Positions 50,603 through 62,804 of a stretch of 64,000 nucleotides of DNA are shown here, piece by piece. This DNA comes from Pseudomonas sp. HN11 (lineage in GTDB: Bacteria; Pseudomonadota; Gammaproteobacteria; Pseudomonadales; Pseudomonadaceae). The position numbers and the translations under genes are program-made. Location of the stretch: contig NZ_CP089985.1 in assembly GCF_021390155.1 (NCBI RefSeq), positions 4,661,001-4,725,000 on the forward strand, given 5' to 3'. The notes beneath the pieces were generated by a model. That model searched no databases. It was not told the origin of the DNA and worked only from the letters and a program-made list of their open reading frames with translations. Positions within the stretch are counted from its first letter, which is position 1, and every line of letters starts with the position of its first letter.

Positions 50603-50779
50603 GGTGATCTCTCCACTAACTGTGTTGGAAAAGCTCAGGACGCCGGCTGCTCAGTAGGAGCGAGGCCAGCGCTTGTGGCCTGGACCTGGAAAATAAGTGA
50701 GAATGCGGCCCACTGCGGGACGGCAAAATCGCGCCTATCATATCCAAGATTCGCCATCAGCTTAAGGCCCAGGGCTCAA

Positions 50780-51598
50780 ATGAAACGATCTGCTTTCTTT
50801 ATCTCCGACGGCACCGGCATCACAGCCGAAACATTGGGTCAAAGCCTGCTCGCGCAGTTCGAAAACATTACCTTCGCCAAATTCACGCGGCCGTACATCG
50901 ACAGCGTGGATAAAGCGCGGGCCATGGTACAACAAATCAATCTGGCGGCTGAAAAAGACGGTTTTCGCCCGATCATTTTCGACACCATCGTCAATCAAGA
51001 CATCCGTGAGATTCTCGCAACGTCGAATGGTTTCATGATCGACATTTTCTCGACGTTCCTGGCACCACTGGAGCAGGAGCTGAGTGAACATTCGTCGTAT
51101 TCGGTAGGAAAGTCCCATTCCATTGGGCACAACTCCAACTATATGGAGCGTATCGAGGCGGTGAACTTCGCCCTCGACAACGACGACGGTGCCCGCACCC
51201 ACTACTACGACAAGGCCGACCTGATCCTGGTGGGCGTGTCGCGCTGCGGCAAAACGCCCACCTGCTTGTACATGGCCATGCAATTCGGTATCCGTGCGGC
51301 CAACTACCCGCTGACCGAAGACGACATGGAGCACCTGACGCTCCCCGCTGCCCTGCGCGCGCATTCGCACAAGCTGTTTGGGCTGACCATTGATCCGGAC
51401 CGCCTCACGGCGATCCGCAATGAGCGCAAGCCGAATAGCCGCTACTCCAGCTATGCGCAGTGTGAGTTCGAGGTGCGTGAAGTAGAAAATTTGTTCCGCC
51501 GGGAGAATATTGCGCACATCAATTCCACGCATTTTTCGGTGGAGGAGATTTCGGCGAAGATTCTGGTGGAGAAAGGGGTGGAGCGCAGGTTCAAGTGA
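50780..51598 (+). CDS. ppsR: PEP synthase regulatory protein (bifunctional kinase/pyrophosphorylase)
   Basis: This 272-residue DUF299 protein phosphorylates and dephosphorylates PpsA, switching it off and on. It begins [20 protein letters not shown] and has the P-loop [14 protein letters not shown] near residues 150-163. The start at 50780 matches the family; the longer open frame to the left is an antisense shadow of ppsA. It is followed by a degenerate repeat. Confidence 0.96.
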
Positions 51599-51600
51599 AG

Positions 51601-51682
51601 CAGCTGGAAGCTTCAAGCTGCAAGCTGCAAGGAAAAGCCACTCGGCACTTGTCTTGCAGCTTGTAGCTTGTAGCTTGTAGCT
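51601..51682. repeat. AGCTTGTAGCTTGTAG-type intergenic repeat
   Basis: Direct copies of CAAGCTG on the left and of AGCTTGTAGCTTGTAG on the right face each other and can pair. The same family is seen at 12281-12358. It fills the space between convergent ppsR and the MocR gene. Confidence 0.55.
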
Positions 51683-53107
51683 TTACAGCTGAAACCTCCC
51701 TCCCCCCTGCCCCAGCGCCGTGGCCAACGCATCAAACCCCGCCCGCAACAACTGATCATCCCCCGACGTATTGCAGATGCTCGCCCGAATGAACTGAGGC
51801 ACCGCCGTCTGCCCCACCGCAAACGCTTCGGCGGTGGCGATCAGGTAATTATTCTGCTTGAGCTCCGCCTCGATTTCTGACGCCCGCCACGGTTCCGGCA
51901 CTTCAATCCAGAAATGCGGGCTGTTGAGGTGGGTGCGGTATTCCAGGCCGGCCAGCAAGTCGCGCACCAAGGCTTTGCGTCGGCTGATCTCGTTGATCTG
52001 CTGGCGCAGCAGGTATTCCGCCGTACCGTTTTCGATCCATTGGGTGGCAAGCTCCAGGGTGACGGGCGTGGCCATCCAGCAGGTCGAACGCAGCGCCGCC
52101 GAAATACGGCTGACCAACGCCGGTGGGGCGTGCACATAACCCACACGCAGCCCGGCCGACACGGCTTTGCTGAGACTACTGATCAAAATCGTACGTTCAG
52201 GGGCGAAATGACTGAGGGGCGGCGGTCGATCTTCGACCAACACGCCGTGGGCTTCGTCTTCAAGAATCAGCAGGTTGTGTTCACGGCACACTTTGACCAG
52301 CGCCTCGCGGCGCGCCACCGAGAGCACTGCGGTGGTCGGGTTCTGGATCGTCGGTGTGCAATACAGCGCTGAAATCCGGTGATTTCGACAGACTTCGTCC
52401 AACACGCTCGGCAGCACGCCCTCCTCATCCATTTCCAGGCCAATCAGCCGGATCCCCAGCATACGCGCAGCGGTAATGAGACCAGGGTATGTCAGCTGCT
52501 CGGTGACCACCGTGTCGCCTGCCCGCAACAGCGCCATCATCGAGCACAGCAAACCATGCTGGCCGCCATTGACACAAATGACCTGCTCGGGGATTGGGTG
52601 AAAGTCACGCTGCACCAACCATTGCGCACCCGCTTCACGGTAGCGCGGCAAGCCGGCATCCGGCGTGTAGGCGCTGATGTCCTGGAGGAATTTGGCGTTG
52701 GTCGACAGGGTTTGGAAGCTTTGGGCCAGGAACACCGTCTCCTGCCCTGGGATGTGCATGTTGCGGCTCATGTCGAAGTACTGGCGCGGCTCTTCACTGA
52801 AGTTGCGAAAGCCTTCATCGCGCTGACGCTCCATCCCACGCTTGCGCACGAAAGTACCATCACCGACTCGCGCCACAACCAGCCCCAGGCGTTCCAGTTC
52901 GCCGTAGGCCCGGCTGATGGTGCCGATGGTCACACCCAGGTTGTCGGAAAGCACCCGATGGGGCGGCAGTTTTCGTCCTGGTTCAATCAAGCCTTCAAGG
53001 ATGCCCCGCTCCATGACATCGGAAAGGCGCTTGTACTTCACGCCCTGACCGCTGGACAACCCCTCACGCATAATTGACACCATGTCAATATTTGTTTTGA
53101 CAGTCAT
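51683..53107 (-). CDS. MocR-type regulator (GntR winged helix fused to aminotransferase fold)
   Basis: This 474-residue protein has an N-terminal GntR winged helix (KLPPHRVLSDNLGVTIGTISR, about residues 40-75) and a C-terminal type-I aminotransferase domain (about 115-470). The PLP lysine lies in ISSLSKAVSAGLRVGYVH, and AHGVLVEDRPP and NGGQHGL belong to the cofactor pocket. MocR proteins sense PLP or its adducts with amino acids and usually control the divergent gene. The divergent operon here encodes amino-acid sulfur chemistry and an exporter, which suggests a cysteine-like or aminated ligand. Direct repeats lie in the shared promoter region. Confidence 0.9.
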   Translation of the reverse strand: MTVKTNIDMVSIMREGLSSGQGVKYKRLSDVMERGILEGLIEPGRKLPPHRVLSDNLGVTIGTISRAYGELERLGLVVARVGDGTFVRKRGMERQRDEGFRNFSEEPRQYFDMSRNMHIPGQETVFLAQSFQTLSTNAKFLQDISAYTPDAGLPRYREAGAQWLVQRDFHPIPEQVICVNGGQHGLLCSMMALLRAGDTVVTEQLTYPGLITAARMLGIRLIGLEMDEEGVLPSVLDEVCRNHRISALYCTPTIQNPTTAVLSVARREALVKVCREHNLLILEDEAHGVLVEDRPPPLSHFAPERTILISSLSKAVSAGLRVGYVHAPPALVSRISAALRSTCWMATPVTLELATQWIENGTAEYLLRQQINEISRRKALVRDLLAGLEYRTHLNSPHFWIEVPEPWRASEIEAELKQNNYLIATAEAFAVGQTAVPQFIRASICNTSGDDQLLRAGFDALATALGQGGGRFQL

Positions 53108-53135
53108 CTTTCGCCCTAATAGTGTGCTTTTACGG

Positions 53136-53186
53136 GTTCAATCGCCGAATTTTACAACTCATTACACGCTCAATATAGAGTTCAAT
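53136..53186. promoter_or_regulatory. Direct-repeat operator candidate between the MocR gene and the exporter
   Basis: GTTCAAT occurs at 53136-53142 and again at 53180-53186 in the same orientation, 44 bases apart, close to four helical turns. Flanking bases are partly alike (GGGTTCAATCGCCG and GAGTTCAATTCCGG). Paired direct repeats are the usual target of MocR dimers. The rest of this 103-base intergenic region carries no gene. Confidence 0.45.
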
Positions 53187-53210
53187 TCCGGCCCAGGGAA
53201 GCCATAAACG

Positions 53211-54161
53211 ATGCCAATGTCCGCCGTACTTGAAAACACCACCAAGACAAAAACCCAAAAACAGTGGTTGGCCGGGCTGATCACCAGCGTGATGTTCCTG
53301 ATCGTGTGCCTGAGTTGGGGTACCACCTGGCTGGGGATCAAGATCGCCGTGGAGAGCGTGCCGCCACTGACTTCCGCCGGCCTGCGCTTCCTGATCGCCT
53401 TCCCGCTGTTCCTGTGTTTTGCGATGGTGCGCCGCGAGCCGATCCTGTTTCCCCGTGAAAGCCGCTGGTTCTTCGTATTCGTGACCCTGTCCTACTTCAG
53501 CGTGCCCTACTACCTGCTCAACTACGGCGAGATGCATGTCTCCTCCGGCCTGACCGCGCTGCTGTTCAGCTGCATGCCGGTGTTTATCCTGATTTTCTCC
53601 GCGCTGTTCTTGCGCGAGCGCATCTACTTTTCCCAGGTGGTCGGTATCGGTATCGGTTTCGGTAGCCTCTACATGATCATCAAGAGCCAGGGCCTGCATT
53701 TGGACCACGCGGAATTCTTCGGCGTACTGGCGATCCTCACCGCCGCGATCATGCATGCCCTGTGCTATGTGATAACCAAGCAGAAAGGCAGCGCCATCAG
53801 CGTGATCACCTACAACACCCTGCCCATCGGCATTGCCGGGCTGATGCTGTTCGTCGCCGGGCTGTGGTTTGAAACGCCGACCTTCGAAACCATCACCCTG
53901 CGCTCCTGGGGCGCGCTGTTCTACCTGGGCCTGGTGGCCTCGGTGGGCGGGTTCATCGTGTACTTCATGCTGCTCAAGCGCTTGAGCCCGATCATCCTGT
54001 CGTTCGTGTTCATCATTTTCCCGGTGTTCGCGGTGATCATCGGCGCCTGGTACGAGGGCGTGTCGATTTCCCGCGACCTGATGCTGTACTCGGCCATCCT
54101 GCTGGCCGGCTTTGCGATCACCAAGTTGCCGGTTGAAAAACTCCTGGCCAAGAAAAATTGA
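53211..54161 (+). CDS. EamA/DMT-family exporter of the sulfur cluster
   Basis: This 316-residue inner-membrane protein has two EamA repeats and about ten membrane segments (MFLIVCLSWGTTWLGIKIAV opens the first repeat). The family includes exporters of cysteine, O-acetylserine and threonine. It is the first gene of a tightly packed run with the JAMM-carrier-E1-rhodanese fusion, cysteine-synthase-like and serine acetyltransferase genes. This points to export of the pathway product or an overflow intermediate. AGGGA precedes the start; a second ATG two codons later is possible. The next gene starts 23 bases after its stop. Confidence 0.88.
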   Translation: MPMSAVLENTTKTKTQKQWLAGLITSVMFLIVCLSWGTTWLGIKIAVESVPPLTSAGLRFLIAFPLFLCFAMVRREPILFPRESRWFFVFVTLSYFSVPYYLLNYGEMHVSSGLTALLFSCMPVFILIFSALFLRERIYFSQVVGIGIGFGSLYMIIKSQGLHLDHAEFFGVLAILTAAIMHALCYVITKQKGSAISVITYNTLPIGIAGLMLFVAGLWFETPTFETITLRSWGALFYLGLVASVGGFIVYFMLLKRLSPIILSFVFIIFPVFAVIIGAWYEGVSISRDLMLYSAILLAGFAITKLPVEKLLAKKN

Positions 54162-54184
54162 CCCTTCAGCAACGCGAGAGAAAC

Positions 54185-56047
54185 ATGGAAGTCCTCCGCC
54201 CCACCGCCCTGGAACAGATCTACGCCCATGCCAGCCGCAGCTACCCCGAAGAATGCTGTGGTTTTGTCTTCGCCGACGGCAGCGTGTACCTGGGCAGTAA
54301 TATCCAGAACGAGCTGCACCGCAAGAACCCCGAGATGTACCCGCGCAGCGCGGCCAACGGCTACACGTTCTCAGTGGCCGACACCCTGCTGCTGAACAAA
54401 GCGTTTCGCAGCGACAACCCCGTGGTGGTGATCTACCACTCCCACCCGGATGTCGGTGCTTATTTCAGCGACGAAGACCAGGACAAGGCGCTGTTCATGG
54501 GCGAGCCGATCTACCCCGTCAGCTACCTGGTGGTAGACGTTCGCCAGGGCCAGACCCTGGGTTCCAAGCTGTTTGCCTGGGATGGCAAGCATTTCGCCCT
54601 TACACCTTTCAACGACCTGCACACGGAGTTGTCCATGAACGCTGTCTCCTTCCCCGACATTCTGGTTCGCGTGGCCAAGCTGCCGGAATCGACCCTTGAG
54701 GGCACCGGATCGACATTGCGCGAAGTCATTGAAAACCTCTGCAGCAGTCATCCACAGTTGCGCCCGCACCTGTTTCACGAGAAAAACAACCAGCTCAAGG
54801 AACACTTCCTGTTTACCGCTGAGGAAGCGTTGATCGACGCCGACGAACCTTTGCCGGAAAAAGCCAAAATCGAAGTGCTGCTGGCCACGTCCGGCGGCAT
54901 GGATGTCGACGCGCTGAGTAATGAAGAAGTACAGCGCTACGTGCGTCACATCACCCTGCCCGGCGTGGGTCGCGAAGGTCAGTTGAACCTCAAGAAAGCC
55001 AAGGTATTGATCATCGGCACTGGAGGCCTGGGTTCGCCGATCAGCCTGTACCTCGCGGCTGCCGGGGTCGGCACCTTGGGACTGGTGGACTTCGACGTGG
55101 TCGAAAGCAGCAACCTGCAACGCCAGATCGTCCACGGCAACAGCACCCTCGGCCTGCCCAAGGTGGAATCCGCCAAGCAACGCTTGCAGGACCTCAACCG
55201 CCATATCCAGATCAACGCCCACGACACCGCGCTAAACGCCGACAACGCCCTGGAACTGGTGGGCGCCTACGACCTGGTGATCGACGGCACCGACAATTTC
55301 GATACCCGTTACCTGGTCAACGATGCCTGCGTACAATTGGGCAAGCCCTTGGTGTACGGCGCAATCTACCGCTTCGACGGGCAGATCAGCGTGCTCAACT
55401 ACAAAGGCGGGCCGTGCTACCGTTGCCTGTTCCCCAGCGCGCCGCCCGCCGAACTGGCGCCCAATTGCAGCGCCGGGGGTGTGATCGGGGTGCTGCCCGG
55501 TGTGGTCGGGATGATTCAGGCGACCGAGGCGATCAAGCTTTTGATCGGCATTGGTGAACCCTTGTCCGGCCGCTTGATGCGCTTCGATGCGCTGGCGATG
55601 AAGTTCAGCGAGATCCGCTTCAAGCGCCGTGCCGACTGCCCGTGCTGCTCCGAGGCGCGTCACAACGAAACTCTCGCACCGACCGCCTGCGCGGATGCCG
55701 TGCCCAGCCAACCGTCGCTGGCCGAAGAGCGCTACATAAAGCCACGGGTACTCAAGCAGGTACTCGAACACCATAGCAGCGCCGATGTGCTGTTGGACGT
55801 GCGCGATGCCAGCGAACTGGAAGTGTGTAAATTGCCGGGCGTGGTACATATCCCCCTGGCCGAACTGGACGGCCACCTCGACAGCCTAAGCCGGGATAAC
55901 ACCCATTATCTGATTTGTTACGCCGGCACCCGTGCGGAGCAAGCCGCCAGTACCTTGCTGGCTGCCGGCTTTGCCAACACCAAAGTCCTGCAGGGCGGCA
56001 TGAAGCATTGGGTTCGCGACGTCGAACCCGACATGCCGTTGTATTGA
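54185..56047 (+). CDS. Four-domain fusion: JAMM protease, sulfur-carrier (MoaD/ThiS-like), E1-like adenylyltransferase, rhodanese
   Basis: This 620-residue protein combines a complete sulfur-relay set. Residues 1-145 form a JAMM/Mov34 metalloprotease with E23, H85, H87, S95 and D98. Residues about 155-238 read as a MoaD/ThiS-type ubiquitin-like carrier (FPDILVRVAKL, TLREVIENLCSSHPQLR, KAKIEVLLATSGG) with the diglycine at 237-238 followed by Met. Residues 245-495 are a ThiF/MoeB E1 domain (GTGGLG at 278-283, active-site C428, zinc pairs C411/C414 and C485/C488). Residues 515-620 are a rhodanese with active Cys578 in CYAGTR. All key residues are present. By family knowledge the E1 adenylates a carrier C-terminus and the rhodanese supplies sulfur; JAMM would cleave after Gly-Gly. 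ATG at 54185 lies 23 bases after the exporter gene. Confidence 0.88.
   Translation: MEVLRPTALEQIYAHASRSYPEECCGFVFADGSVYLGSNIQNELHRKNPEMYPRSAANGYTFSVADTLLLNKAFRSDNPVVVIYHSHPDVGAYFSDEDQDKALFMGEPIYPVSYLVVDVRQGQTLGSKLFAWDGKHFALTPFNDLHTELSMNAVSFPDILVRVAKLPESTLEGTGSTLREVIENLCSSHPQLRPHLFHEKNNQLKEHFLFTAEEALIDADEPLPEKAKIEVLLATSGGMDVDALSNEEVQRYVRHITLPGVGREGQLNLKKAKVLIIGTGGLGSPISLYLAAAGVGTLGLVDFDVVESSNLQRQIVHGNSTLGLPKVESAKQRLQDLNRHIQINAHDTALNADNALELVGAYDLVIDGTDNFDTRYLVNDACVQLGKPLVYGAIYRFDGQISVLNYKGGPCYRCLFPSAPPAELAPNCSAGGVIGVLPGVVGMIQATEAIKLLIGIGEPLSGRLMRFDALAMKFSEIRFKRRADCPCCSEARHNETLAPTACADAVPSQPSLAEERYIKPRVLKQVLEHHSSADVLLDVRDASELEVCKLPGVVHIPLAELDGHLDSLSRDNTHYLICYAGTRAEQAASTLLAAGFANTKVLQGGMKHWVRDVEPDMPLY
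54625..54637 (+). promoter_or_regulatory. Internal ribosome-binding site and ATG inside the fusion gene
   Basis: GGAG (54625-54628) is followed after six bases by an in-frame ATG (54635), codon 151 of the fusion. It stands exactly at the border between the JAMM and carrier domains. A second product beginning MNAVSFPDIL would lack the protease. This may be a relic of two separate genes or a working dual start. Confidence 0.5.
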
Positions 56048-56059
56048 GGCGAGGGCTGA

Positions 56060-56977
56060 ATGATGTTGCATAACTCCATTCTCGACGTGATCGGCCAAAC
56101 GCCGATCGTGCGCCTGGCGCAGTTCTCCGAAGACCTCGGCATCGAGGTCTACGCCAAGCTTGAATCCCTCAACCCCGGCGGCAGCCACAAGGCGCGCATC
56201 GCCCTGGGCATGATTCTCGACGCCGAGCGCCGGGGCGTGCTGATCCGTGATTCCGGGCAAACCATCATCGAACCCAGCGGCGGCAATACTGGCATCGGCC
56301 TGGTCATGGCCGGCAATGTGCTGGGCTATAAAGTGGTGTTGGTGATCCCCGATAACTACAGCCCGGAAAAGCAGAAGCTGCTGCGTTTATATGGGGCCAA
56401 GGTGGTGCTGTCGGACAGCCGCCTGGGCAACAACTCCCATGGCGAAAAGTGCATGGAACTGCAGCTGGAAAACCCCAGCTACGTGATGCTCAACCAACAG
56501 CGCAACGGCGCCAATCCACAGACCCATCGCGACACCACCGCACCGGAAATTCTGCGTGACTTCGGCGAGCAACGCGCCGACTACTTTGTCTGCGGCATCG
56601 GCACCGGGGGGCATATCACCGGCATCGGCGAAACCCTGAAAGCCGCCTGGCCAGCCCTGCGCGTCATGGGTGTGGAACCGGAAGAATGCGACCTGCTGAA
56701 AAACCAACACGCGCCGCATCACATCCAGGGTCTGTCGATCGGGCTGATCCCCAGCATCCTCAACCTGGACGTGATCGACGGCATGCTCAAGGTCTCGCGC
56801 CAGGACTGCATCGATATGATGAAACGCATCATGCGCACCGACGCTATCAGCCTGGGCCTGTCGTCCGCCGCCAACATGGTGGCCATCGCCAAGCTCGCCC
56901 CCGAACTGCCGCCCGAAACGGTGGTGCTGACCATGGTCTATGACAATGCCGACAGCTACCTGCCCAGTTTCGAATAA
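56060..56977 (+). CDS. Cysteine-synthase-family PLP enzyme, divergent
   Basis: This 305-residue fold-type II PLP enzyme is related to CysK/CysM. The cofactor lysine is K44 in NPGGSHKARIA, where ordinary cysteine synthases have S-[VFT]-K-D-R. The substrate loop reads EPSGGNTGIG in place of EPTSGNTG. The cofactor phosphate loop GIGTGGHITGIG and the NQQRNGANPQTHRDTTAPEI stretch are normal in form. It follows the sulfur-relay fusion by 12 bases and precedes a serine acetyltransferase gene. It probably joins an activated serine to sulfur delivered as carrier thiocarboxylate, by analogy with CysM-CysO. GAGGG lies before the start codon. Confidence 0.85.
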   Translation: MMLHNSILDVIGQTPIVRLAQFSEDLGIEVYAKLESLNPGGSHKARIALGMILDAERRGVLIRDSGQTIIEPSGGNTGIGLVMAGNVLGYKVVLVIPDNYSPEKQKLLRLYGAKVVLSDSRLGNNSHGEKCMELQLENPSYVMLNQQRNGANPQTHRDTTAPEILRDFGEQRADYFVCGIGTGGHITGIGETLKAAWPALRVMGVEPEECDLLKNQHAPHHIQGLSIGLIPSILNLDVIDGMLKVSRQDCIDMMKRIMRTDAISLGLSSAANMVAIAKLAPELPPETVVLTMVYDNADSYLPSFE

Positions 56978-57014
56978 ACGGGTTTCCAGCCAACCAGAAT
57001 GCGGGGGTGCCTCC

Positions 57015-58007
57015 ATGGGCGGTTTTATCGACATGCAACAGTTGCACGATGAGTTGCTGACCCACCTCATCAAGACCCTCACGCCCGTCCAGATGAAGCA
57101 GTTGGAACCGCACCTGGCCCCGCTGATCCAGAATGCGGCCCAGGCGGTGGCTGAGGACCTGATTGCCTACGCCTACCGTGATCCGGCGTCACGTGGGCGC
57201 GGCGAGCTGATCCTGGAGTCCTACGCCTCGTTCAAGGCAGTGCTGTATTACCGCCTGGCGCACCTGGTGTGGCATTTCCCGGACCAGACCAACGGCGTGT
57301 TTTCGCGCATTGCACTCAAGCTGAGCAGCCAGGGCAAGGTGCTTTCCGGTGCCGAGATCCACCCAGCAGCCCGCATTGGCCGACGCTTCGTGCTGGATCA
57401 TGGGTACGGCACGGTGATCGGCGAAACCTGCGAGATCGGCAACGACTGCTACATCCTCTGCGGCGTGACCCTGGGCGCCCGTGGCATCGCCAACAACCCA
57501 GATGGCAAGCGTCACCCGCGGCTGGGCAATAACGTCGAGGTCGGCTCCGGCGCCCGCGTGCTGGGCTATGTGCTGATTGGCGACAATGTGTTTATCAGCC
57601 CGTCCTGCGTGATCACCCAGGACGTTCCCGCCGGCACCAAGGTGAAGGTGGTGAACCAGATCCAGCTGCAAAAAAACGATGAATCGGACCACGGCAACTA
57701 CCTCGGTGCCTTCGCCCTGGATGAGCGCTTGCACGTGGTGGGCGAGATCAACGCCAGCCACAAAGTGACCGTGCTGGACGCCGATTTCCATCCCTTGCCG
57801 GGGCTAATGCTGGAGCCCACGGTCAAGGAGCGGCACCACCTGCAATTTCGCCTGCATCGCGTCGAGGCAGGCAATCAGCTGCCGCGCTTGCCACTGAACC
57901 TGAAAGTCTGCGGCCCGGAATTTGAGATCACCCTGCTCTCTCCCCCTGGCTTGAGCGCCATGGTGCGCTCCCTGCTGCAAGCCCGCCCACTGATCGTCGG
58001 AGGTTGA
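57015..58007 (+). CDS. Serine O-acetyltransferase-like enzyme with C-terminal extension
   Basis: This product of about 330 residues has an N-terminal helical region and a left-handed beta-helix acyltransferase core (about residues 110-220). CysE-like residues are intact: D128-H129 in FVLDHGYGTVIGE and KRHPRLGNNVEVGSGARVLG. It would make O-acetylserine for the neighbouring PLP enzyme. After the core comes about 110 extra residues (from NDESDHGNYLGAFALDE to the end) that ordinary CysE proteins lack and that I do not recognise. ATG at 57015 has a G-rich ribosome-binding site. Its stop is two bases before the next start. Confidence 0.85.
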   Translation: MGGFIDMQQLHDELLTHLIKTLTPVQMKQLEPHLAPLIQNAAQAVAEDLIAYAYRDPASRGRGELILESYASFKAVLYYRLAHLVWHFPDQTNGVFSRIALKLSSQGKVLSGAEIHPAARIGRRFVLDHGYGTVIGETCEIGNDCYILCGVTLGARGIANNPDGKRHPRLGNNVEVGSGARVLGYVLIGDNVFISPSCVITQDVPAGTKVKVVNQIQLQKNDESDHGNYLGAFALDERLHVVGEINASHKVTVLDADFHPLPGLMLEPTVKERHHLQFRLHRVEAGNQLPRLPLNLKVCGPEFEITLLSPPGLSAMVRSLLQARPLIVGG

Positions 58008-58009
58008 AC

Positions 58010-58738
58010 ATGTCCGTGCACACCATGGAAACCCTGGCGCTGTTCGACAGCGCGCCCTACCAGAATGCCTTCAGCGCCCGGGTGATTGCCGTCAGCGAAC
58101 ACGGCATCGCCCTGGAGCACACGCTGTTTTACCCCACAGGTGGCGGGCAACCAGGCGACACCGGCCACCTCACCCTCGCGGACGGTACGCGGGTCGAAGT
58201 GACCGGCACTGCGCGCGATCCGGTGCTGCGCTCGATCATCTGGCACCAGGTGGAACACTGCCCCGCGCAATTGACTGCAGGCGCACAGGTGGATGCCGGC
58301 CTCGATTGGGACCGCCGCTACCAGCACATGAAAATGCACACCTGCCTGCACCTGCTGTGCTCGATCATCGACGCGCCGGTCACCGGATGCAGTATCAGTG
58401 CGGACAAGGGCCGACTGGATTTCGACCTGCCGGAAATGACCCTCGATAAAGACAGCATCACCCGCGACCTCAATGCGCTGATCGAACAGGCCCACCCGGT
58501 AAAAACCCTATCGATGCCGGCTTCCGAATACTCGACTCTGCTACAAATCACCCGTACACAAGCCGTGGCCCCGCCGGTAATTCAGGGGTCAGTAAGGGTG
58601 ATTGAAGTCGCCGGCATTGATATCCAGCCGTGTGGGGGCACCCACGTGGCCAACACTGAAGAAATTGGTCGGGTGTTCTGCGAGAAGATCGAGAAAAAGA
58701 GCAAGCATAACCGCAGGGTGATTTTGCGGTTCGAGTGA
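58010..58738 (+). CDS. Stand-alone alanyl-tRNA editing protein (AlaX type)
   Basis: This 242-residue protein is homologous to the editing domain of alanyl-tRNA synthetase. It has the PTGGGQPGDTG motif near residue 43, the zinc motif HMKMHTCLH (HxxxH), and the second zinc half CGGTHV (CxxxH). AlaX proteins hydrolyse wrongly charged Ser- or Gly-tRNA(Ala). It is the last gene of the run, with AGG seven bases before the start codon and two bases after the serine acetyltransferase stop. Its presence in a biosynthetic operon suggests it removes a mischarged amino acid that accumulates when the pathway runs. Confidence 0.88.
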   Translation: MSVHTMETLALFDSAPYQNAFSARVIAVSEHGIALEHTLFYPTGGGQPGDTGHLTLADGTRVEVTGTARDPVLRSIIWHQVEHCPAQLTAGAQVDAGLDWDRRYQHMKMHTCLHLLCSIIDAPVTGCSISADKGRLDFDLPEMTLDKDSITRDLNALIEQAHPVKTLSMPASEYSTLLQITRTQAVAPPVIQGSVRVIEVAGIDIQPCGGTHVANTEEIGRVFCEKIEKKSKHNRRVILRFE

Positions 58739-58811
58739 AACGGCACGCAGGTCGCGGTCAATATGAGCGGACTTGGCCTTTCCCATACTGACCTGGCTGT
58801 CACCGGCGACG

Positions 58812-59723
58812 TCACGCTGCCTGGGTTTTAACCCGGGCACTCAGTTCCTCTATTTGCTGTTTCAGTTGTGAGATCACCTGCGTGAACTCGGTAATCATTT
58901 GATCTATACGGGCGCGAAGCTCCTTGTTGTCGTGCATGAGCTCATCAACTGTGCGTGACTCGGACGAAGGGGGCTCATCCGTTTGCGTGGACGGCTGGGT
59001 GTTGCTGGTAACGGTGTCTGCGCCGGCCGAAGCAGGGTCCGAGGAAGTGTCGGAGCTCGTGTGCGCGTCCGGGTTCTCTGGAGCAGTCTGAGTGGGTGGG
59101 GTACCTGGCCCGCCGATCTTTTGATTCAATTCCTGTATTTGTTGTTGAAGCTGTTTGACTATCGCGGTGAACTGGGTCTGCAAGCGCTCGACAGTTTCGC
59201 GCAGTTGGTTATTTTCGGCAGTCAAATGCTTGAGGCTTCGAGGGACCTCCTGCCCCGATACGGGGGCATTTTCTACCGGAGCGCTCGCCTGCGGCGATTC
59301 GCCACTTTTCGATCTCTCGGTAACGTCTGGGGTTGATGGCGAGTTCTCTTTTGCAGGTTCTCCGATCTTGTTGAGTTGTTGAGTAAGCTCAGCCACTTGC
59401 TGTCGCATTTGCATGATTATGGGTGTGAACTGAGCAACCAGCTGGTTCAACTTGTCACGCAGTTGATTGTTTTCCTGAGAGAGCTGCGCGAGCTGACCGG
59501 GGCTGGGTTGTGGGGTGGATGCTGGCGAGTTGACCAAACCGCGATGTGATGAAAACTGCCCACGCTGCTGGGGGTTCATCGGCTGGCGGGGGGGCGCAGA
59601 ATTTGACTCGGTGCTGGGCGATGCGGGGGGTTCAGCCGTTTCGTTTGAATTGGGCACCGACTTCGGGCGCATTTCATAGTTGGCGTGATAGGGCGCGTAT
59701 TGTTGATTGCTTACGCTGGTCAT
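58812..59723 (-). CDS. Hypothetical protein with disordered N-terminus and three coiled-coil repeats
   Basis: This 303-residue protein of unknown function has a Ser/Pro/Gln-rich N-terminus (MTSVSNQQYAPYHANYEMRP). Three related helical blocks of about 40 residues follow (near 77-120, 170-205 and 262-300), each of the pattern NNQLRD or NKELRA, then QFTPIIMQM-type, then QQ(V/I)xELxxx. They are separated by long Ser/Thr/Pro linkers. There is no signal peptide, membrane segment or cysteine. GAGAGG lies before the start at 59723. Its first 15 residues and the NPQQRGQFSSH segment match the next gene upstream, so the two are paralogues. Confidence 0.75.
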   Translation of the reverse strand: MTSVSNQQYAPYHANYEMRPKSVPNSNETAEPPASPSTESNSAPPRQPMNPQQRGQFSSHRGLVNSPASTPQPSPGQLAQLSQENNQLRDKLNQLVAQFTPIIMQMRQQVAELTQQLNKIGEPAKENSPSTPDVTERSKSGESPQASAPVENAPVSGQEVPRSLKHLTAENNQLRETVERLQTQFTAIVKQLQQQIQELNQKIGGPGTPPTQTAPENPDAHTSSDTSSDPASAGADTVTSNTQPSTQTDEPPSSESRTVDELMHDNKELRARIDQMITEFTQVISQLKQQIEELSARVKTQAA

Positions 59724-59889
59724 GGAGGGCCTCTCAGATTCAGGTGCTGTATTCACGAATATTGCTCGCCAGACGACCTGAAACGCAGGCCATCTGGCTA
59801 CCTGATTGGCTGATATCTGAAAAGGGTTCCACGGACGTAGGACGTATGAATAGCAAAGTGTGTCGGGGTCAGCCGTCAAAGCACTGCTT

Positions 59890-59967
59890 TCAGATCATCC
59901 ACGCCTCCACAAACCGATTCACCGGCGTCGCCTCAAGCCGTACGTGATCCTTACACGGCATAAAAAT
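59890..59967 (-). pseudogene. Duplicated 3' end of prpD
   Basis: About 78 bases between the two repeat-protein genes match the last 25 or so codons of prpD (61234 onward), including the stop codon region and the CACAAACCGATTCACCGGCG stretch. It has no start and lies out of context. The start of the match overlaps the 3' end of the upstream gene. It marks the junction of a tandem duplication. Confidence 0.85.
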
Positions 59968-61087
59968 GCCCCTTCTTAAATTCTCCAAGCGCTTCATCCA
60001 AAGGGGATGGCCGAGGCGCGAGCAGGTCATGCGTCTCTTTTGCGAGCGTTTGCAGGGCATGCTGGTTCTGTACCTCCTGCTTCAACTCACCCAGCGCTTC
60101 ATCCAGAGGGGATGGCCGAGGCGCGAGCAAGTCATGCGTCTCTTTTGCGAGCGTTTGCAGGGCATGCTGGTTCTGTACCTCCTGCTTCAACTCACCCAGC
60201 GCTTCATCCAGAGGGGATGGCCGAGGCGCGAGCAGGTCATGCGTCTCTTTTGCGAGCGTTTGCAGGGCATGCTGGTTCTGTACCTCCTGCTTCAACTCAC
60301 CCAACGCTTCATCCAGAGGGGATGGTCGAGGCGCGAGCAGGTCATGCGTCTCTTTTGCGAGCGTTTGCAGGGCATGCTGGTTCTGTACCTCCTGCTTGAA
60401 CTCACCCAGTGCTTTGGCCAGAGGGGATGGCGGAGGCGCGAGCAGGTCATGCGTCTCTTTTGCGAGCGTTTGCAGGGCATGCTGGTTCTGTACCTCCTGC
60501 TTCAACTCACCCAGCGCTTTGCATAGAGGGGATGGCCGAGGCGCGAGCAGGTCATGCGTCTCTTTTGCGAGCGTTTGCAGGGCATGCTGGTTCTGTACCT
60601 CCTGCTTCAACTCACCCAGCGCTTCATCCAGAGGGGATGGCCGAGGCGCGAGCAAGTCATGCGTCTCTTTTGCGAGCGTTTGCAGGGCATGCTGGTTCTG
60701 TACCTCCTGCTTCAACTCACCCAGCGCCTTATCCAGAGGGGATGGCCGAGGCGCGAGCAGGTCATGCGTCTCTTTTGCGAGCGTTTGCAGGGCATGCTGG
60801 TTCTGTACCTCCTGCTTGAACTCACCCAGCGCTTTGGCCAGAGGGGATGGCCGAGGTGTAACTAATGCCCGTGTTGAGTCGGCAAGCTGGTTTTGCAGTT
60901 GGCTATGGGCTGAAAGCCGGCCACGTTGCTGCGAGTTCATCGGCTTGTGGGACGGTGTTGAATGACCTTGGCTGTTGGTATTGGCACCCACTTCGGCACC
61001 GACTTCATAGCAAATGCGCTTCGGCTTAGGGGGCCTCTCACAGTGGGTGGGATAAGGAGCGTAATGTTGATTGTTTACACTGGTCAT
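59951..61087 (-). CDS. Hypothetical protein built of eight 35-residue repeats plus a partial ninth
   Basis: This 378-residue protein has an N-terminal region like its paralogue (MTSVNNQHYAPYPTHCERPP, then PMNSQQRGRLSAHS). Eight nearly identical 35-residue units follow, of pattern APRPSPLDEALGELKQEV then QNQHALQTLAKETHDLL, with a truncated ninth unit ending in FKKGHFYAV. Each unit has a PRPSPL turn and a long amphipathic helix. The last residues are encoded by sequence derived from the prpD remnant, so the original C-terminus was lost in the duplication. There is no signal peptide or membrane segment. GAGAGG precedes the start codon. The function is unknown. Confidence 0.75.
   Translation of the reverse strand: MTSVNNQHYAPYPTHCERPPKPKRICYEVGAEVGANTNSQGHSTPSHKPMNSQQRGRLSAHSQLQNQLADSTRALVTPRPSPLAKALGEFKQEVQNQHALQTLAKETHDLLAPRPSPLDKALGELKQEVQNQHALQTLAKETHDLLAPRPSPLDEALGELKQEVQNQHALQTLAKETHDLLAPRPSPLCKALGELKQEVQNQHALQTLAKETHDLLAPPPSPLAKALGEFKQEVQNQHALQTLAKETHDLLAPRPSPLDEALGELKQEVQNQHALQTLAKETHDLLAPRPSPLDEALGELKQEVQNQHALQTLAKETHDLLAPRPSPLDEALGELKQEVQNQHALQTLAKETHDLLAPRPSPLDEALGEFKKGHFYAV
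59985..60857. repeat. 105-bp tandem repeat array inside a coding sequence
   Basis: A unit of exactly 105 bases recurs with few changes, as shown by the GAGGGGATGGCCGAGGCGCG core at about 60001, 60106, 60211, 60316, 60421, 60526, 60631, 60736 and 60841. Variation is concentrated in the short CTTCATCC/CTTTGGCC/CTTTGCAT segment, which encodes the two residues after PSPL. There are eight full copies. High identity indicates recent expansion or gene conversion, and copy number probably varies between strains. Confidence 0.95.
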
Positions 61088-61233
61088 ACAGTGCCTCTCA
61101 GGTTCATGGGATGTATTCAAAACGGCCCGTTGCGGGCCGTCTGATACCTGATTGGCAACTATCTGAAAATGGTTCCCCACGTGTAGGAACCTGAGCCTAA
61201 AAGCGTGTCAATGCCACCCATCAAAACGCGCGT

Positions 61234-62718
61234 TCAGATCACCCACGCTTCCACAAACCGATTCACCGGCGTCGCCTCAAGCCGTGCCTGGTCCTTGCAC
61301 AACGCAAAAATCTCGGCACTGCGCTGTGCGGTAAACCGTGTGGCCAGGTTGGCCTTGAACTTGTCTTCCAGCAACGGAATGCCCTCGACCCGGCGACGGC
61401 GATGACCTATCGGGTATTCAACTACCACCTGTTCAGTGCTGGTGCCATCTTTGAAAAACACCTGCACGGCATTGGCGATGGAGCGCTTGTCCGCCTCCAG
61501 GTATTCGCGGCTGTAACGTGGGTCTTCGACGATGGCCATCTTTTCCCGCAACTGATCGATGATTGGATGGGCGGCGTGGAATTCGTCCTCGTACTGCTCG
61601 GCCACCAGCTTGCCAAACACCAACGGCACGGCTGTCATGTACTGCAGGCAATGATCGCGATCAGCGGCGTTGGCCAGTTGGCCGACCTTGGAGATGATGC
61701 GAATCGCCGACTCATGGGTAGTGACCACGATACGTTCGATTTCCTGCAGACGATCTTTCACCAATGGGTGCAAGGTCACCGCCGCCTCACAGGCCGTTTG
61801 TGCGTGGAACTCGGCAGGAAAACTGATTTTGAACAACACGTTCTCCATCACATAGGTGCCGTAGGGCTGGGACAGACTGAACGCGCGTTTGTCCTCCGGC
61901 TTGAGCGCCAGGTCCTTGTTGGTGTGGCTGAATAGCACGTCGTAGAAACCCCACTGTGGCGCGCTCAGTACGCCAGGAATGCCCATCTCGCCACGCAAGG
62001 CGATATCCGCCAGACGCACGCCTCGACTCGACGCATCCCCCGCCGCCCATGATTTGCGCGAACCGGCATTCGGCGCATGCCGGTAGGTGCGCAATGCCTG
62101 CCCATCGACAAACGCATGGGACAAGGCCGCCAGCAACTGCTCACGGTTGGCGCCCATCAGCTTGGCGGTGACCGCCGTGGAGGCGACTTTCACCAGCAAC
62201 ACATGGTCAAGGCCGACGCGATTGAAGGAGTTTTCCAAGGCCATCACACCCTGGATTTCGTGGGCCATGATCATCGCCTCCAGCACCGCGCGCATGGTCA
62301 GCGGCGCGTCACCATTGGCCACGCGTTTTTGCGACAGGTGATCCGCCACGGCGAGGATGCCGCCGAGGTTGTCCGAGGGGTGCCCCCATTCGGCAGCGAG
62401 CCAGGTGTCGTTGTAATCGAGCCAGCGCACGATGCAACCGATGTCCCAGGCCGCCTTCACCGGGTCGAGCCGGAAGGAAGTGCCCGGCACCCGAGCGCCA
62501 AACGGCACCACCGTACCCTCGACGATCGGCCCCAGGTGCTTGGTGCACTCGGGGAAGCGCAGGGCCAACAGACCACAGCCCAAGGTGTCCATCAGGCAGT
62601 TGCGGGCGGTGTCCAGTGCGTCCTGGGAATGGATCCGGTAAGTGAGGACATAGTCGGCGATGTCCTGCAGGACCTGGTCGTAGTCGGGGCGGTTGTTCTG
62701 GTCGACGTTGGTGCTCAT
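61234..62718 (-). CDS. prpD: 2-methylcitrate dehydratase
   Basis: This 494-residue enzyme of the 2-methylcitrate cycle of propionate degradation belongs to the MmgE/PrpD family ([57 protein letters not shown]). The start at 62718 ([17 protein letters not shown]) gives the usual length; an ATG eleven codons upstream is less likely. It follows prpF on the same strand. A piece of its 3' end is repeated at 59890-59967. Confidence 0.95.
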
Positions 62719-62804
62719 GGCAGTACTCCAAAAGGTTAGGGGTTGTTCCATCCTCAGGTCAGGGTTGAAGTGTCATGGCGGGTCTGATTGCCCGTTTTTG
62801 GGGG

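Follow-up and report, generated by a model that had tools for sequence, protein, structure and literature searches.

We analysed a 64,000-nt window of Pseudomonas sp. HN11 (NZ_CP089985.1) that contains a compact six-gene cluster (positions 51683–58738), in which a MocR-type regulator stands opposite five closely packed genes. The regulator gene (51683–53107, minus strand) encodes a GntR DNA-binding domain (PF00392) and an aminotransferase-like pyridoxal phosphate (PLP) domain (PF00155). The five plus-strand genes encode an EamA exporter of the drug/metabolite transporter (DMT) type (53211–54161, 316 aa; PF00892 in two stretches), a JAMM-carrier-E1-rhodanese fusion protein (54185–56047, 620 aa), a CysK-like PLP enzyme (56060–56977, 305 aa; PF00291, PALP/cysKM), a serine acetyltransferase-like protein (SAT; 57015–58007, 330 aa; Hexapep/cysE, extended C-terminally by about 105 aa) and an AlaX-type tRNA editing protein (58010–58738, 242 aa; PF07973, tRNA_SAD, and AlaXM). 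The intergenic gaps, in gene order from mocR to alaX, are 103, 23, 12, 37 and 2 bases. Open reading frames (ORFs) and Pfam and NCBIfam scans bore out the six genes, names, coordinates and spacings given in the original prediction, an earlier annotation made from the letters alone; start codons are the ATGs implied by these spacings, and the mechanical ORF list extends some genes at their 5′ ends.

Conservation of the cluster and its regulator

A fusion-protein search of GTDB genome contigs yielded 154 stretches that encode a relative, of which the best 80 were kept, corresponding to 75 loci. In all 75, which were selected by fusion-protein similarity and come mostly from relatives of P. fluorescens, the six genes are present in a single order, including one locus in Vreelandella, so that the arrangement is not accidental. 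The most distant of these (L065 and L072–L078, among them P. alcaligenes, P. nitroreducens and Vreelandella boliviensis) encode fusion proteins that are 63–78% identical to the window's. The six window genes are under purifying selection, with a ratio of nonsynonymous to synonymous substitution rates between 0.026 and 0.113 in 16 of 16 comparisons to three relatives (0.03–0.11 for the fusion gene; cysK and mocR were without a comparison to L051).

Presence of the cluster is nonetheless patchy. Full-length SAT relatives were found in 34 of 199 sampled genus genomes, counting the source genome, and shorter ones in 8 more, while SAT profile matches (E at most 1e-55) occurred in 20 of 198 family genomes and 7 of 398 phylum genomes. 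Across these surveys, the patchy occurrence of the SAT shows that the cluster is an accessory trait. Ten regions taken from the SAT surveys comprised seven window-like clusters (type a) and three of a second kind (type b), which is described below.

The regulator's best NCBIfam match is EhuR (447 bits, below the cut-off of 480), and its PLP-lysine motif, SLSK, is conserved in each of the 84 matched loci. An operator-like element (53074–53102) overlaps the start annotated for mocR; it consists of the palindrome TTGACACCATGTCAA (53074–53088) and a further TTGACA (53097–53102). Of 85 type-a loci, 79 carry the exact pattern TTGACANNNTGTCAA (15 were aligned), which has a single occurrence in the entire 6.27-Mb genome. 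Consequently, the regulator is probably dedicated to this operon; its P. aeruginosa counterpart PA2100 (MdrR2) is said to act on efflux genes too, as told in PMC9431628.

An internal carrier within the fusion protein

The fusion protein contains a JAMM/Prok-JAB metalloprotease domain with the motif HSHPDVGAYFSDED (residues 8–119, 54206–54541; PF14464), a ThiS/MoaD-like carrier domain that ends in ATSGG (residues 151–238, 54635–54898; PF02597), a ThiF/MoeB-like E1 adenylation domain (residues 252–487, 54938–55645; PF00899, E 5.6e-82) and a rhodanese domain with the loop CYAGTRAE (residues 525–611, 55757–56017; PF00581). The whole-protein Pfam scan of the fusion gave no match for the carrier. 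When excised, the carrier matched ThiS (PF02597) in nine of nine relatives, the window's own scoring 22.5 bits, just at the cut-off of 22.5. As a profile, carrier residues 151–238 matched PDB entry 4n6e_B, a 'ThiS/MoaD family protein' that we take to be a CysO (E 1.7e-4). The JAMM motif is conserved in 73 of 85 loci, which are those whose best match spans it, and the zinc, adenylation, crossover-cysteine and rhodanese-cysteine motifs are conserved wherever the matches cover them. A structure model of the fusion had a mean pLDDT of 52.7 and was not used as evidence.

We compared the junction between carrier and E1 in 85 of 117 loci, all of type a; the remaining 32 are short SAT-centred pieces (L110–L138) or type-b loci (L186, L187 and L189). 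Carrier and E1 are fused in every one of the 85, and the ATSGG tail is invariant, even in L139, where the carrier is 31% identical. The E1 lies downstream in frame, and this frame remains open for at least 300 residues past ATSGG in 82 of 85 loci, with a frame change in the drafts L062, L079 and L139. The residue that follows ATSGG is variable (M in 49, I in 19, L in 16 and T in 1). An internal start at an ATG after the Gly-Gly was therefore rejected as a general explanation, as I, L or T stands there in 36 of the 85 loci. As a separate observation, the fusion gene is frame-broken in the draft assemblies L062, L064, L079 and L139, and so is the CysK-like gene of L139, through either sequencing error or decay.

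The JAMM domain is in one frame with the carrier in 66 of the 85 loci and not in the other 19, and it was read directly as a separate gene in L065 and L072–L078. The four-domain fusion predicted for the window therefore stands, but it is not a general form: JAMM is fused in one Pseudomonas lineage only.

Adenylation of a carrier requires a free terminal glycine. The C-terminal Gly-Gly of CysO is free, whereas the carrier's Gly-Gly here lies within the chain in all 85 loci and would be free only if cut. Taken together, the invariant internal Gly-Gly and the need for a free terminal glycine predict a cleavage that would release the carrier from E1, presumably through JAMM. There are precedents for cutting fused carriers. 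DRJAMM, a JAMM protein, cleaves the Deinococcus MoaD-MoaE fusion (PMC8832034); the window's JAMM is on the same chain as the carrier. Mycobacterial MoaX must be cleaved behind Gly82, and its authors had then not identified the protease (PMC4326299); Iyer et al. foresaw the cleavage of fused carriers by JAB (PMC1779556). If the prediction is true, the cluster would be a natural case of a carrier that needs release from its own E1 before sulfur transfer.

Related cassettes and the separate branches of their enzymes

Three of the proteins score below the curated NCBIfam cut-offs of the families they resemble: the CysK-like enzyme with 293 bits against cysK (cut-off 351), the SAT with 147.5 bits against cysE (210.7) and AlaX with 206.8 bits against AlaXM (300). 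In a tree of 50 SAT rows, whose bootstrap had not settled, 21 cassette rows and L091 (the SAT of L163) split from 28 others along a branch with 100/100 support. A tree of 30 CysK-family rows separated 24 cassette rows from six canonical ones with 100/99.7 support; the six were the source genome's CysK-, CysM- and CBS-like proteins, a second CysK, DcsD and a PDB cysteine synthase, and L139 was omitted as its gene is in two frames. By these scores and trees, the window's SAT and CysK-like enzyme fall outside the housekeeping CysE and CysK groups and, on sequence, sit on branches of their own. The genome encodes separate CysE, CysK and CysM homologues, and it is therefore likely that the cluster has a role beyond housekeeping cysteine.

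The gene neighbourhoods follow the same division. Of 46 cassette SAT loci, 44 have AlaX no more than about 1.5 kb away, compared to none of 27 canonical cysE loci, and the counts for a CysK-like gene are identical (44/46 versus 0/27); the 46 SAT-selected loci include many close relatives and are not independent. L091 was left out of the cysE control as a member of the cassette branch, and its inclusion changes the AlaX count to 44 of 47. Of the two loci without a near AlaX, L171 has one further off (L187) and L183 comes from the genome of L191. Together with the single gene order in 75 of 75 loci, these counts confirm the expectation that the gene families are kept together in other genomes.

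The window's CysK-like enzyme carries the marks SHKAR, SGGNTG, LNQQRN and PEECD. In the cassette rows, the canonical TSGN loop of CysK is replaced by xGGN (xGGS in L142 and L145), and the PxxCD mark is present in all but L146. Within type a, the CD of PxxCD is found in 85 of 85 loci and LNQQRN in 84 of 85, with Gln at a position where the CysK-like enzymes of other cassettes keep Phe. The best PDB match is the D-cycloserine enzyme DcsD, an O-ureidoserine synthase (232 bits, with a cysteine synthase at 228 bits); in the tree, however, DcsD groups with the canonical CysK rows, apart from the window's enzyme. Adjacency of SAT and CysK-like genes in 75 of 75 loci suggests that the substrate is O-acetylserine rather than O-phosphoserine.

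The C-terminal extension of the SAT (57684–58004) had no Pfam match. It is modelled as beta strands, and it is found in L139 and L140 and absent in type b. A Foldseek search with the SAT model returned SATs as the top three matches, the C-terminal part being weakly CD1/antibody-like, which we do not interpret. The Gly-Gly at the SAT C-terminus was considered as a second carrier tail and rejected, as it is not conserved. AlaX has the SAD domain (PF07973) and keeps the zinc motifs HxxxH and CxxxH, in the window and in the matched loci, as in trans-editing proteins. Besides the cluster's AlaX and proteins of ThrRS or AlaRS size, one more protein with a tRNA_SAD match, a short one, was noted at G000:C1:1957557-1957658 (L200).

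In the genus survey, the SATs that ranked next belong to other small clusters and are not housekeeping CysE. Type-b clusters combine MocR, SAT, AlaX and a CysK-like enzyme, in an order that varies among loci, and have no sulfur relay; eight were found in the 199-genome sample and three more later (L141–L148, L186, L187 and L189). Their hosts are Pseudomonas and kin, and their CysK-like enzymes share only some 30% identity with that of the window. In L142 and L187, where the ORFs were read, there is also a membrane protein that resembles an MFS transporter, judged by eye. The L140 cassette has EamA, AlaX, CysK-like, SAT and thioredoxin genes.

A plasmid search with the SAT returned 53 records, and the first two examined were both cassettes. 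On a Salmonella plasmid (NZ_CP022016.1, 4178–8050; L152), AlaX, CysK-like and SAT genes are accompanied by an S-adenosylmethionine-dependent methyltransferase and an AzlC permease, which would fit a methylated cassette product. A Xenorhabdus plasmid (NZ_CP147736.1, 34–9059 and 34756–36057; L153) carries a CysK-like, SAT and DMT set with AlaX, a valine-tRNA ligase and a gene of the serine-dehydratase family (PF03313) within 8 kb. This small plasmid also has brnQ, and the plasmid-borne ligase could be a self-resistance copy. In L163 (603–8206), SAT, CysK-like and DMT genes occur with an adenylation protein. In L139 (3608–11376), the set is a diverged form of type a that adjoins a condensation-adenylation gene; no regulator or exporter was found in it. 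From these adjoining genes, the cassette products of L163 and L139 may feed a peptide. None of the 16 tested regions of other cassette types had a match to the fusion protein (E 1e-3).

Known systems and the proposed product

The relay and its cysteine synthase partner were listed before. Row 4c in Table 1 of Iyer et al. (2006) describes an uncharacterised operon, in P. aeruginosa among others, with a carrier, an E1-rhodanese, a JAB protein and a cysteine synthase, all of which occur together in the window, where the JAMM is fused. By gene names and order, we match the P. aeruginosa operon of this class to PA2100–PA2106, genes that also appear in expression papers. The original prediction named no described system with this exact set; the core, however, is in the 2006 row, and the SAT, AlaX, exporter and regulator are not. 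What is new is the wider set of SAT/CysK-like/AlaX/exporter cassettes, which is little described. The literature searched, which leaves out most subscription journals, had no paper combining 'alanyl-tRNA editing' and 'cysteine synthase', a result that carries little weight.

In the CysO-CysM-Mec/MoeZR pathway, a carrier thiocarboxylate is the sulfur donor of a cysteine synthase and release is of the JAMM type (PMC3227635); the window likewise has a JAMM hydrolase and an E1-rhodanese activator. That pathway uses separate genes and O-phosphoserine, whereas the window has a carrier-E1 fusion, an O-acetylserine-type setting, AlaX and an exporter. Thiocarboxylate siderophore loci (pyridine-2,6-dithiocarboxylic acid and quinolobactin) also have E1-rhodanese, carrier and JAB in common with the window. 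A siderophore reading was rejected because the nine proteins scanned (from 50762 to 62751) include neither a carboxylate-AMP ligase nor a CoA-transferase. For a deacylase in a producer there is the precedent of FthB, a free-standing enzyme that protects the fluorothreonine producer against the amino acid it makes (PMC11295145); FthB is related to ProXp-ST1 and not to AlaX, and the amino acid is made otherwise.

We give about an even chance to the proposal that the cluster is regulated and makes an L-alanine whose beta substituent bears sulfur. Such a thio-amino acid would be formed separately from housekeeping cysteine, and might be cysteine that is subsequently modified or sent out. The SAT would produce O-acetylserine. 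JAMM would cleave the carrier-E1 precursor behind the internal Gly-Gly (Gly238), and E1 would adenylate the released C-terminus, which the rhodanese persulfide would convert to a thiocarboxylate. The CysK-like enzyme would form aminoacrylate from O-acetylserine and then add the carrier-bound sulfur, after which JAMM would release the amino acid from the carrier and EamA would export it. AlaX would strip the product, or accumulated serine-like intermediates, off mischarged tRNA, and MocR would detect an amine or thiol via its PLP and switch the operon. This follows the original prediction of serine activation, substitution, export and a translation guard, which the relay-less cassettes fit. The EamA protein's 38.9 bits against the O-acetylserine/cysteine exporter family (cut-off 472) give no support to an export of cysteine. 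The patchy presence (34 of 199 genus genomes) counts for a specialised product, as for an accessory trait.

AlaX and exporter mostly accompany the SAT/CysK-like pair even where the relay is absent, which suggests a shared logic in which a substituted alanine derived from O-acetylserine would be kept out of protein and exported. Extending this, we consider it possible, though short of probable, that there is an unrecognised family of substituted-alanine factories, defined by an own-branch SAT and CysK-like enzyme, a product-stripping AlaX, an exporter, often a MocR regulator, and an exchangeable module that would supply or modify the attacking group. The window's version would use a ubiquitin-like thiocarboxylate, released from its own E1 by the fused JAMM, to make an exported thio-amino-acid antimetabolite or signal. 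If so, common pseudomonads would make unknown non-protein amino acids with tRNA proofreading as built-in self-protection, and the xGGN and PxxCD marks and the SAT branch would be handles for finding more cassettes.

Several points weigh against the thio-amino acid proposal. Every chemical step is drawn from knowledge of the families, so that the product, the AlaX substrate and the cleavage are all inferred. AlaX enzymes of known activity deacylate Ser- and Gly-tRNA(Ala) (PMC11295145), which makes a special AlaX substrate guesswork. The exporter resembles YedA more than it does the cysteine exporter, AlaX is missing from the type-a cluster L191 and from the related cassette L163, and the two trees have long branches and no root, with only six canonical rows in that of the CysK family. 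In addition, a P. aeruginosa cysK cysM double mutant showed late recovery, for which its authors suggest PA2104 or PA1061 as a backup (PMC12800425); recovery backed by PA2104 would fit plain cysteine. The same observation favours an auxiliary cysteine supply like CysO-CysM-Mec, which would make plain cysteine under stress with its sulfur safe on a carrier, EamA venting the excess and AlaX guarding against serine mischarging alone. The domain set is the same as that of CysO, MoeZR, Mec and cysteine synthase, and the operon is raised by RpoH (PA2101–PA2104 and PA2106 up 2.2–4.3 fold; PMC9866376). We nevertheless regard this explanation as somewhat unlikely: the genome already has housekeeping CysE, CysK and CysM homologues, the cluster's enzymes are on their own branches with relatives that adjoin methyltransferase or nonribosomal peptide synthetase genes, and AlaX is retained in cassettes that have no relay. 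Deletion of P. aeruginosa PA3816 (cysE) also causes auxotrophy despite PA2105, though PA2105 may be silent there (PMC13256707).

A purely protective thiol or metal stress device, in which MocR would sense cysteine-like thiols or metal loss and the operon would rebuild or export thiols, is quite improbable. N-acetylcysteine did raise PA2100–PA2103 by 0.7–1.7 log2 units, outside the Zur regulon, but it acts mainly as a zinc chelator and PA2104–PA2106 are absent from the genes listed in that study (PMC9431628); moreover, such a device has no need of AlaX. Finally, the cluster could hold two side-by-side functions, the relay serving another sulfur pathway and the SAT, CysK-like enzyme, AlaX and exporter using another sulfur source. 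The existence of a SAT/CysK-like/AlaX core without the relay, in regions where the fusion protein has no match, speaks for such a split. Yet the relay lies between the exporter and CysK-like genes in 75 of 75 loci, and LNQQRN is associated with the relay in all but one type-a locus while other cassettes keep Phe, so that we judge a split very improbable.

Downstream of the cluster, we also observed a tandem array (59988–60856) of a 105-base unit in 8.3 copies, with 95% matches, within repetitive ORFs.

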